From contig JAGYIF010000001.1 in assembly GCA_018402735.1 (NCBI GenBank), positions 1-64,000 on the forward strand: a stretch of 64,000 nt of DNA, written 5' to 3'. Numbering within the stretch: the stretch's first letter is position 1; each line of letters begins with the position of its first letter. Of the stretch, positions 19,552 to 23,286 are shown in pieces. This DNA is from Pelagibacteraceae bacterium (GTDB lineage Bacteria > Pseudomonadota > Alphaproteobacteria > Pelagibacterales > Pelagibacteraceae). The notes beneath the pieces were generated by a model. It ran no database searches. It saw only the letters and a list, made by a program, of their open reading frames with translations, and was not told the DNA's origin. The translations under genes were made by a program, and so were the position numbers.

Positions 19552-19850
19552 TAAGAAAATTTATTAATTTTCTTAATTAAGAACTTAGATGGTTTAAAAG
19601 TAACAACGTTTCTAGAATCTATTAAAGTCTCTTGTTTAGTTTTGGGATTTCTTCCTATCCGGCTGTTTTTAAATCTGTTCGTAAAGGTACCAAATAAAGA
19701 TATTTTAACTTTTTTTTCCTTTGAAATCCCATTAATAATATTAGCAAAAATATCATCAACAAAATTAGTACAATAAATTTTGGGAAGTCCTAACTCAGTA
19801 TGGATAAGTGTGTACAAGTTTTGCCGTGTTATATTTGTAATTTTGGTCAT
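19551..19850 (-). CDS. ihfA: Integration host factor subunit alpha / HU-like DNA-bending protein
   Basis: The 99-residue basic protein belongs to the HU/IHF family. Helices 1-2 (NITRQNLYTLIHTELGLPK) precede the beta arms, with the DNA-intercalating tip NSRIGRNPKTKQE and the closing VVTFKPSKFLIKKIN. IHF bends DNA sharply and supports nucleoid structure, recombination and transcription. The position next to the merR-like gene supports the alpha subunit, but the sequence is divergent and an HU role cannot be excluded. It overlaps tmk by four bases. In many alphaproteobacteria plsX-fabH precede ihfA; here tmk does. Confidence 0.85.
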   Translation of the reverse strand: MTKITNITRQNLYTLIHTELGLPKIYCTNFVDDIFANIINGISKEKKVKISLFGTFTNRFKNSRIGRNPKTKQETLIDSRNVVTFKPSKFLIKKINKFS

Positions 19851-20482
19851 TTATTTATAAATCTTAATAATTCTTTTTGAATATTAGCCTGCACAACTGC
19901 TTTAGGCAAATGATTGGAGATCAATACAATTCTATTTTTATTTAATAAAGCTATCTTTTTAAAGGCTGACCTAATTTTATTCATTCTATTAACTGGTTCT
20001 TTATCAAACCTATCTTTTTTTTTGCTTCGTTTTGAAATTCTTTCTTTTCCCAAAGATGGGTTTATATCTAATAGGAAAGTTAGATTTGGTTTCTGATCTT
20101 TATCTATTAGTTTCTGAATATAATTTATAACCTCTAATTTAATATTTCCATTATAGTGCTGGTAAGCAATTGTGGAATCAACGTAACGGTCACACAGTAC
20201 AATATAACCTTTATTTAATTTATCCTTGATAAGATCATAGTGCTCTGCCCTCGCGGCGAATAACAAAAAAAGCTCAGTTAATGAATTTGATTTGGAATGC
20301 AAATCATTTATTACTAATTTTCTTATTTTTTCAGATATTTTTGTACCACCAGGCTCTCTTGTTAAATATACTTTTTTTCTGATTTTAGTTTTTATAAAAT
20401 TAGCTAGTAATTTAATTTGCGTTGACTTTCCAGAGCCTTCAATACCTTCAAATGTAATAAATAAATCTTTATTTATCCCCAT
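19847..20482 (-). CDS. tmk: Thymidylate kinase
   Basis: Tmk phosphorylates dTMP to dTDP for DNA synthesis. The 211-residue protein has the P-loop FEGIEGSGKSTQ (residues 11-22), the TREPGGTKISEKIR motif with the DR(E/P)-type arginine, and LCDRYVDSTIAYQ. The lid region contains lysines and arginines (RISKRSKKKDRFD). It overlaps dacA by ten bases and ihfA by four, placing an essential nucleotide kinase inside a tightly coupled cell-wall and housekeeping operon. dacA-tmk adjacency is known in alphaproteobacteria, usually followed by holB, which is absent here. Confidence 0.95.
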   Translation of the reverse strand: MGINKDLFITFEGIEGSGKSTQIKLLANFIKTKIRKKVYLTREPGGTKISEKIRKLVINDLHSKSNSLTELFLLFAARAEHYDLIKDKLNKGYIVLCDRYVDSTIAYQHYNGNIKLEVINYIQKLIDKDQKPNLTFLLDINPSLGKERISKRSKKKDRFDKEPVNRMNKIRSAFKKIALLNKNRIVLISNHLPKAVVQANIQKELLRFINK

Positions 20483-21612
20483 ATTAAAAAATTAATTGTA
20501 TTTAGAAATTTTTTAATAAAATTAACTTTTGTAAAGTCTTCGGACGCAAAAAGAGCAAAATCTTTTGAAAATCCACTATTATCTTTAATTGTTAGTAATC
20601 CAACTTCTTCATTAATTTTAAATTGTTTTTTTAATGGCTGATCTACATTTATAGAAACTATTAAATCTTTTGATTTTCTTTTATTATAAGTAAAAAAAAC
20701 ATCCTCTTTAAGGTGAAGCTTTGTTTGATTAATTTTTCCATTCCAAAAATCAGCAATGAATAATGGATTGTCTTTTTGAATTTTAATAAGATCAGAAGAT
20801 ATGACAGCGTAATTTAGTAATTTTAACGACTCTCTTGTTCTTTCCGCATTTGATAAAGTGCCACTTACAACGCTAATTAATCTTCGTTCACCATCTTTCA
20901 TCGATGCTGCAAGAGCATATCCAGAATCGCTGAGATAACCAGTCTTAATACCGTCATAATTATTGCCTCTAAACAAAAGTGAGTTTCTATTTGGCTGTGT
21001 TATAGGGTTGCCTCCAGTTCTTTCCCACGTAAAACTTTTTTTGTTATAAAGTTTATAAAGATCATTGTGATTTTTGATAAGATAAGAAGACATAAGGGCA
21101 ATATCAGACACAGTTGAATAATTTTTTTCTGAATAAATTCCTGAAGAGTTTGAAAAACTAGTGTTTATCATGCCAATATTTTTAGATTTTTCGTTCATCA
21201 TCATAACAAAAGATTCTTCTGATCCAGCTATTCCTTCTGCCAAAGCTACACATGCATCAATACCAGAGGCAATAATTATACCCCTTAATAAATTTTCTAC
21301 GGTAATTTTATCATTAGGCATTATAAACATTGATGAATATCCTTGCTTAGAGTGTTTCCATGCTTTTTCTGAAACAATAAATTTTTCTGTTAGTTTAAGC
21401 TCACCTTTTTGAATTAGATCAAAAGCAATAATGGTAGTCATTATTTTTGTAAGTGACGCTGGAGATATTTTGACATTTTCGTTTTTTTTAAAAAGAACAT
21501 CTCCAGAATTAAAGTCAATTAGAATTGCTTGCTTTGCAGTCGTTTCTATTGAAAAACAGTTTGTTGTAAAAAATAAATATATAAAAAAAGAGAGTAATTT
21601 TATTTCTTTCAT
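20473..21612 (-). CDS. dacA: D-alanyl-D-alanine carboxypeptidase (PBP5/6-like) with altered SxN motif
   Basis: This low-molecular-mass penicillin-binding protein normally trims the terminal D-Ala from peptidoglycan stem peptides in the periplasm. The 379-residue product has a signal peptide (about 1-22), the SxxK motif SLTK with nucleophile Ser53 and Lys56, and KTG at 223-225 (GIKTGYL). The second catalytic motif, SGN in relatives, reads SGI (Ser116-Gly117-Ile118) within IIASGIDACVALAEG. The codon is ATT, one base from an Asn codon. The C-terminus holds the PBP5 beta domain and an amphipathic anchor-like end. It overlaps rlpA-like by four bases and tmk by ten. Confidence 0.92.
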   Translation of the reverse strand: MKEIKLLSFFIYLFFTTNCFSIETTAKQAILIDFNSGDVLFKKNENVKISPASLTKIMTTIIAFDLIQKGELKLTEKFIVSEKAWKHSKQGYSSMFIMPNDKITVENLLRGIIIASGIDACVALAEGIAGSEESFVMMMNEKSKNIGMINTSFSNSSGIYSEKNYSTVSDIALMSSYLIKNHNDLYKLYNKKSFTWERTGGNPITQPNRNSLLFRGNNYDGIKTGYLSDSGYALAASMKDGERRLISVVSGTLSNAERTRESLKLLNYAVISSDLIKIQKDNPLFIADFWNGKINQTKLHLKEDVFFTYNKRKSKDLIVSINVDQPLKKQFKINEEVGLLTIKDNSGFSKDFALFASEDFTKVNFIKKFLNTINFLIWG

Positions 21613-22316
21613 TTTACTAAAATTTTAAAACCATCATAATTATTTTGTTTCATTTTATAATACAAACTATCGTAACCATTAATATTAGAAATTGGTCCTA
21701 TTGTGACATAATAATTTTTGCTACTACCTTCTATGGCAATATTTTTAACTTTAAGAGAATTTATTAGATTATTTCGAAGTTCATTTGCAAATTTTGAGTA
21801 ATAAAAACTACCAAACTGAAGATAGATCTTTTTGGACTCGAGTTCAGTTTTGGTCGATTCTGTCGATGAAAGTGGGGCTATTTCTACATTGCCAACTTTT
21901 GATGTATTGGAAACTTTTCTTTCTTCCCGAAAAATTTCAGCTTTATTTGCAATAAAGGTTGGATTGGATTTCACATTGCTAATATCCTCTATTCGAACAA
22001 GGGGTAATTTTTTGTCAATGTTAAGCTTTTGAAAAGCCGATTCTGGTACATATACAATTCTTGATCCGTCCACTGATGTTTTTTGAAGATTATTCAATTG
22101 TATTGATTTGCTATTCAAAAGATTGGTTATTTTTATAGATGTACCAGGATAAGAAAGTGAAACTACAGCTTCTACCTTAGGATTAATAATTTTTATTTGA
22201 TTTAAATTACCAAGAAAACCTTCCGCTTCATAAATTTTAACAATTTTATTTTGCACATTTACGCAAGTATTAAGAAGCATCAGCATCAAAAATGCAAATA
22301 TTTTTTTTTTAGTCAT
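21609..22316 (-). CDS. RlpA-like SPOR-domain protein with degenerate barrel
   Basis: The 235-residue protein has a hydrophobic signal segment ending near Cys18 (a weak lipobox, LNTC). A central region YPGTSIKITNLLNSKSIQL resembles the double-psi beta-barrel of RlpA. A C-terminal SPOR domain (about residues 160-235, KIYLQFGSFYYSKFANELRNNL, then YYVTIGPIS) would bind denuded glycan strands at the septum. The barrel lacks the conserved His and the NDRGP-type loop with the catalytic Asp of lytic RlpA. Its place between mltB and dacA matches the rlpA position of other proteobacteria. I infer a structural or targeting role rather than glycan cleavage. Confidence 0.75.
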   Translation of the reverse strand: MTKKKIFAFLMLMLLNTCVNVQNKIVKIYEAEGFLGNLNQIKIINPKVEAVVSLSYPGTSIKITNLLNSKSIQLNNLQKTSVDGSRIVYVPESAFQKLNIDKKLPLVRIEDISNVKSNPTFIANKAEIFREERKVSNTSKVGNVEIAPLSSTESTKTELESKKIYLQFGSFYYSKFANELRNNLINSLKVKNIAIEGSSKNYYVTIGPISNINGYDSLYYKMKQNNYDGFKILVK

Positions 22317-23286
22317 ATTTTAATTGATCAGAAAATAATCCTACAGCAATTGCAAATCTTAAAGATCTATTCCAATGAAGAAGTTTTTCATAATTGTAAC
22401 TTACAAGATAAGCAGGACCAGTTGTTCCGTCAGGTCTAACTAATTGAAACAAAGTTTTTGATGGTAATTTAACATCACTTAGTACTCCAAGGTCCTTCCA
22501 CTTTTCGTAAGTCATTGCTTTCTGAAAATTTCTTGCATCGGTAGTAATTAAATCTATATTGATATTTTTTACGAGAGTGACTTTTGATCCCCATAATATG
22601 TTCTTGTCCCAGCCTATTGTTTTAAGATAATTTGCAGCAGACGCAAAAGAGTCTTCTAGAGAGTTGGTTAGATCAATGGTTTCGTTCTTATCGTAATCAA
22701 TAGCGTAATTTGCAATTGATGACGGCATAAATTGAAAATTTCCATGTGCTCCAGCCCAAGATCCGTACATCGATTCAATATTAACTTTTTTGGAATCAAT
22801 TAGCTTCAAGAGTATTAATAGTTCATTTGAAAAATATTCTGATCTCCGCTTATCAAATGAAAGGGTTGCTAAAGCTGAAAGAATATCAACTTTTCCTTTG
22901 TGAATTCCAAAATTAGTTTCTATTCCCCAAAGAGCTATTAGTATTTCTTTGGGTACTGAAAATTCATTTTCAATTTTATTTAAAAAACTTTTCTTTTCTA
23001 ATATAAGATTTTTAGCTTTAGCAATTCTTTGTGCGGTAACTCTTTTTTCAACATAAGTATCGGTTTTTTCAATAAATTCAGGTTGTTTTCTGTCATAGAC
23101 TAATAACTTTTCTATGAATACAATTCTGGCAAAAGCCTTATCAATTGTTGCTTGACTTACACCTGCTTGACTTGCTTTTATTTTAAATTGATTTGTCCAA
23201 TTAATAAATTCTTGGTTTTCAGCTAAGGCATGTGAAGAAAGTATTAATATAAAAAAAACAACAAATTTTTTTAAAGGTTTGTACAT
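22309..23286 (-). CDS. mltB: Lytic murein transglycosylase B (MltB family)
   Basis: MltB cleaves the MurNAc-GlcNAc bond with 1,6-anhydro ring formation. The 325-residue protein has a signal peptide (1-22) without lipobox, the GH103 catalytic glutamate Glu123 in LWGIETNFG, and the family motifs AGAHGNFQFMPSSIANYAID and DLTNSLEDSFASAANYL. There is no C-terminal peptidoglycan-binding repeat. It is the first gene of a seven-gene overlapping run (mltB, rlpA-like, dacA, tmk, ihfA, merR, rpmG) and overlaps the next gene by eight bases. Length agrees with periplasmic, non-lipidated homologues in alphaproteobacteria. Confidence 0.94.
   Translation of the reverse strand: MYKPLKKFVVFFILILSSHALAENQEFINWTNQFKIKASQAGVSQATIDKAFARIVFIEKLLVYDRKQPEFIEKTDTYVEKRVTAQRIAKAKNLILEKKSFLNKIENEFSVPKEILIALWGIETNFGIHKGKVDILSALATLSFDKRRSEYFSNELLILLKLIDSKKVNIESMYGSWAGAHGNFQFMPSSIANYAIDYDKNETIDLTNSLEDSFASAANYLKTIGWDKNILWGSKVTLVKNINIDLITTDARNFQKAMTYEKWKDLGVLSDVKLPSKTLFQLVRPDGTTGPAYLVSYNYEKLLHWNRSLRFAIAVGLFSDQLKYD

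Follow-up and report, generated by a model that had tools for sequence, protein, structure and literature searches.

Penicillin-binding enzymes are recognised by three motifs. The asparagine of one of these, SxN, is near-invariant across the PBP5-type sequences that we sampled. In E. coli PBP5, Ser87 and Asn112 hold the amide carbonyl of a substrate-like boronate, according to the accessible part of one report (PMC12472243), and in the class A enzyme CTX-M-14 the end residues of the corresponding tripeptide bond two lysines, including the catalytic Lys73 (PMC12073871). Within the S11 family, a natural third residue other than Asn occurs in the Streptomyces K15 DD-transpeptidase (1skf, 1es5), whose motif reads SGC (PMC12073871, Table 1), and hence S11 tolerates another residue at this place. 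Structures of the C98A and C98N mutants of K15 exist, as we know from their titles. In the literature searched, some of it available in part, we found no activity data on an S11 enzyme mutated at the third SxN residue, and searches on SAR11 peptidoglycan, on Pelagibacter or Fonsibacter carboxypeptidases and on their class A PBPs gave no title on the variant described here; on penicillin-binding proteins of SAR11 and LD12 no paper at all came up in the library searched.

We analysed a stretch of 64,000 nucleotides from a Pelagibacteraceae genome (the window), which encodes a DacA-like protein of 379 amino acids on its minus strand (20473-21612). The initial annotation had reported that the SxN motif of this protein was changed to SGI while SxxK and KTG were intact, and ORF, DNA and translation bore it out: the altered motif is Ser116-Gly117-Ile118 (21259-21267, minus strand), with the Ile codon ATT at 21259-21261, and SLTK (residues 53-56, with the nucleophile Ser53 and the base Lys56; 21445-21456, minus strand) and KTG (residues 223-225; 20938-20946, minus strand) are both in place. 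When 72 sequences were aligned, Ser53, Thr55, Lys56, Ser93, Ser116, Gly117, Lys223, Thr224 and Gly225 were invariant in all rows. Ser93 (21334-21336, minus strand) is presumably the equivalent of PBP5 Ser87, as judged from an alignment with PBP6 and from the PBP5 numbering. Pfam reported Peptidase_S11 (E 3e-67, 227 bits, curated cut-off 27.6) and, at residues 279-360 (20533-20778, minus strand), PBP5_C (E 1.2e-8, 35.4 bits, curated cut-off 21.2). The NCBIfam DacA equivalog NF008059 scored best among the models listed, at 214.4 bits and thus far under its curated cut-off of 694. An AlphaFold2 model built from eight sequences (mean pLDDT 83.8) aligned with E. coli PBP5 over 349 residues (Z 33.6, rmsd 4.1), so that the predicted fold is PBP5-like. 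The best solved relatives were PBP5, PBP6 and DacA enzymes, with SGN in all five alignments shown. The protein departs from the canonical SxN motif, and we still place it in S11 by homology and fold.

The gene is flanked by a thymidylate kinase gene that overlaps its end (19847-20482, minus strand) and, two genes upstream, by a gene for an SLT_2 lytic transglycosylase (22309-23286, minus strand), both assigned from the ORF list and Pfam. Between dacA and the transglycosylase gene lies an ORF of 235 amino acids (21609-22316) without a Pfam match, whose start looks lipoprotein-like by eye; ORFs resembling it in size and start occupy the same place in two other loci (L002 and L030). The gene order around dacA, including an ORF similar to the thymidylate kinase, is kept in L030, a locus from another SAR11 genus (g6), where the ORFs were named by their likeness to the window proteins.

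The genome that contains the window (G000) comprises 1,324,150 bases in 27 contigs, is 96.8% complete with 2.5% contamination, and belongs with the Pelagibacterales, as judged from its relatives. Its DacA is most similar (90% identical) to that of G001, which is apparently Pelagibacteraceae bacterium CP.31, the nearest named record, as identity and motifs match. All six genomes of the same genus (g1) carry dacA, with Ile at position 118 in G000, Val in G001 and Asn in the other four. Genus g6, which we guess from its tree position and the size of its genomes might be the freshwater SAR11 (LD12), is represented by 13 genomes; eight have a full DacA, and all eight have Val, while the 16 genes fetched from family f2 all have Asn. 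Over the 72 rows, position 118 is Asn in 62, Val in nine and Ile in one.

To see how rare the change is, we searched genome samples of increasing breadth. In the family sample a pattern allowing any codon at 118 matched 254 of 397 genomes (a protein search found the gene in 287), and among the matches listed the only ones without Asn were G000, G001 and the eight g6 genomes, plus one chance match (G096:C1). In the order sample a pattern excluding A as the second base of the codon matched five of 397 genomes (G000, G001 and the g6 genomes G010, G023 and G031); most g6 genomes lay outside this draw, and the pattern is blind to replacements with A in second position and to genes changed nearby. 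The pattern used for the class and phylum samples, which detects only Asn, Lys, Asp, Glu, Ile, Met or Val, matched 70 of 190 genomes (69 with Asn) and 125 of 388 genomes at 126 places (125 with Asn), the one remaining match being G000 each time; these two samples overlap in genomes, the codons were read from the lists by eye, and genomes that did not match are uninformative. The possibility raised in the initial annotation that Ile is common in functional homologues was checked and did not hold, as Ile was found in G000 only, among the 72 tree rows and among the pattern matches listed.

We then asked whether the variant arose once or twice. In the 72-row tree, G000 and G001 fall inside genus g1, adjoining the Asn-bearing G004 (support 100/99), while g6 falls outside the g1-g8-g10 group, on a long stem branch (1.19). 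With column 118 left out, the Val and Ile rows formed two clades, for which the least number of changes is two, and a single clade was disfavoured (p-AU 0.0186). We rejected the figure of one change in the group table of the first tree, which was counted against the f2 outgroup only, with 46 rows left out. The variant thus apparently originated independently in the g1 pair and in g6. The test, based on a quick tree without column 118, is not strong proof of this, because we defined the variant group with the data already in view and the g6 stem is long. All 62 SGN rows, and also G000 and G001, have a Trp at residue 85 (21358-21360 in the window), which seven of the eight g6 rows have lost (Arg in five, Lys in one, Val in one); given this loss and the long stem, the substitution in g6 may belong to a wider remodelling of the protein. 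We looked for co-varying partners among columns with a conservation of 93% or more over the SGN rows; apart from 118, no column was uniformly changed to the same new residue across both variant clades. At column 214, Tyr stands in 58 of the 62 SGN rows and Phe in three; the g1 pair has Phe, and g6 has either Phe (four) or Ser (four).

The variant gene is under purifying selection. By the NG86 method, dN/dS between G000 and G001 was 0.118 for dacA and 0.074-0.216 for five neighbouring genes; the range was about 0.06-0.10 for five pairs of g6 dacA genes and about 0.04-0.12 for the six SGN control pairs that could be used (L008/L039 was excluded for an ambiguous base). The value for G000 and G001 slightly exceeds the highest of these controls (0.117), and four further pairs within g1 gave about 0.08 (L005/L006), 0.12 (L003/G000), 0.09 (L003/G001) and 0.19 (L003/L004, both SGN). 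In g6, codon 118 is GTT in four genomes, GTA in three and GTG in one, which indicates that Val was kept through silent change. An all-Val column is by itself unexceptional there, as nine of the 21 columns with a Val majority are all Val; 199 of the 379 columns of g6 DacA are invariant.

We also examined other cell-wall genes. A profile search of G000, an incomplete assembly, returned the window DacA as its single Peptidase_S11 match, so that no compensating S11 paralogue was found in it; the same genome has three transpeptidase domains, one of them within a frame of 788 amino acids that also holds a GT51 domain. GT51 (PF00912), the mark of a class A PBP, was found in none of the 13 g6 genomes (completeness 55-99%) and in every one of the 11 genomes searched from elsewhere in SAR11. 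The three best g6 genomes have two transpeptidase domains instead of three; G010, one of the g6 genomes, is a single contig and 99% complete. A missing class A PBP was rejected as the cause of the substitution, since G000 and G001 have one. Genus g6 also has a second, short, PbpG-like S11 enzyme (L067:1243-1995, 250 amino acids), with SITK, SNN and KTG, which scored best with the NCBIfam D-alanyl-D-alanine endopeptidase model, under its cut-off. Weak DacA matches to this second enzyme (L063-L072) occur in 10 of the 13 g6 genomes, some of them crossing a TAA, and the S11 family matches in G010, G023 and G031 are free of stops.

Taken together, we lean towards a working PBP5-type carboxypeptidase in SAR11 that would do without the side chain of the SxN asparagine and in which the handling of substrates and beta-lactams has probably changed. 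A branched hydrophobic residue would have taken the place of Asn along the lineage of G000 and G001, and Val would have done so in g6, apparently in a separate event. Ser53 would still be acylated by peptides ending in D-Ala-D-Ala, and the acyl-enzyme would be hydrolysed through the usual Ser/Lys/Ser relay. Without the Asn amide, the amide carbonyl of the substrate would lose one of its two contacts and be held by Ser93 alone, and a bond to Lys56 would probably be lost too. Side-chain binding would thus be weaker and the surroundings of Lys56 altered, as can be expected from the carbonyl contact of PBP5 Asn112 and from the lysine bonds of the CTX-M-14 tripeptide, while nucleophile, base and proton relay would stay. 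The basic carboxypeptidase turnover would be expected to drop less than the affinity for amide side chains, among them those of penicillins and cephalosporins.

Several other explanations should be considered. The initial annotation had allowed for a read or strain-specific error, the true codon at 21259-21261 being AAT. A single base separates ATT from AAT and the Ile allele is known from one assembly, but G001, the closest relative, carries Val (GTT) at this very codon and the separate genus g6 has Val in eight of eight genes; it is improbable that an error would by chance strike just the codon in which the sister departs from Asn as well, and an error turning GTT into ATT, though possible, would not restore Asn. 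We therefore give a sequencing or assembly error hardly any weight. The Val of the sister genome supports a residue other than Asn at position 118, even if Ile itself is known from one assembly, and such a residue in both the sister and a separate genus looks like a real, retained variant and not a sequencing slip. Very probably, SGI/SGV is a real variant of a known enzyme family, rare and recurrent.

The initial annotation had also suggested an enzyme that is weak or altered in specificity, and altered or weaker catalysis is indeed plausible from the sequence. Pushed further, DacA might be weak or dead and retained for a structural or binding role in the cell-wall machinery, in which it binds pentapeptides without hydrolysing them. 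What is lost is a residue whose PBP5 counterpart touches a substrate-like inhibitor, and the second S11 enzyme of g6, with all three motifs, means that the main DacA of that genus could be non-catalytic or specialised. Yet none of the 10 variant rows departs from the catalytic Ser and Lys residues, although no more than 199 of 379 columns are invariant in g6, and G000 has no other S11 enzyme that we could find; these invariant residues and a dN/dS near 0.12 argue against a dead enzyme, and we hold this explanation to be unlikely. Neutral drift, with an Asn that is dispensable in these SAR11 lineages and a nearly neutral hydrophobic substitution, would fit a variant confined to two clades in one part of the tree. 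It seems quite doubtful to us, as Asn is retained in the remaining 62 rows and, bar the one chance match, in the family matches listed outside g1 and g6, and as Val was held in g6 through silent changes. A replacement that recurs, and that affects the sole S11 enzyme found in a SAR11 genome, can be regarded as a natural experiment on the role of the asparagine. It poses the question whether trimming of the cell wall depends on this residue, or whether its main use is to bind amide side chains, for instance those of beta-lactams.

The third motif residue of the window DacA matches that of the class D beta-lactamases (OXA type), whose motifs read SAV, SAI or SAL and so end in Val, Ile or Leu (PMC12073871, Table 1). 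In the accessible part of one report, OXA-48 V120I kept carbamylation and activity, while V-to-D changes in OXA-24/40 and OXA-1 led to deacylation-deficient enzymes (PMC7864059); the accessible part of another describes that in class D a Trp orients the carboxylated lysine, which a Leu caps together with the Val (PMC12389319). This raised the idea that, in two SAR11 lineages independently, a hydrophobic residue came to cap the catalytic lysine in the manner of class D, which would dehydrate the pocket, perhaps with a carboxylated lysine, speed the release of the acyl-enzyme and bring the protein part-way to class D chemistry. The hydrophobic third residue fits, but the segment that we took as equivalent to the class D omega loop, whose Trp binds the carboxylated lysine, reads NSSG in the window DacA (residues 155-158, the same in all 10 variant rows), an equivalence derived from other rows of PMC12073871 Table 1, PBP5 itself being outside that table. 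With no Trp in NSSG and a sequence that falls in family S11, class D chemistry is unlikely, and we consider the whole scenario highly improbable. K15 offers a precedent within S11: its structure (1skf) aligned with our model over 247 residues (Z 28.7, rmsd 2.8), although its third residue is Cys and not a branched hydrophobic one, and only model residues 19-272 align, without the PBP5_C part. With E. coli PBP5, to which it is about 30% identical, the window DacA has in common the fold, the Peptidase_S11 and PBP5_C domains, SxxK, KTG and the equivalent of Ser87, and it differs in having SGI where PBP5 has SGN.
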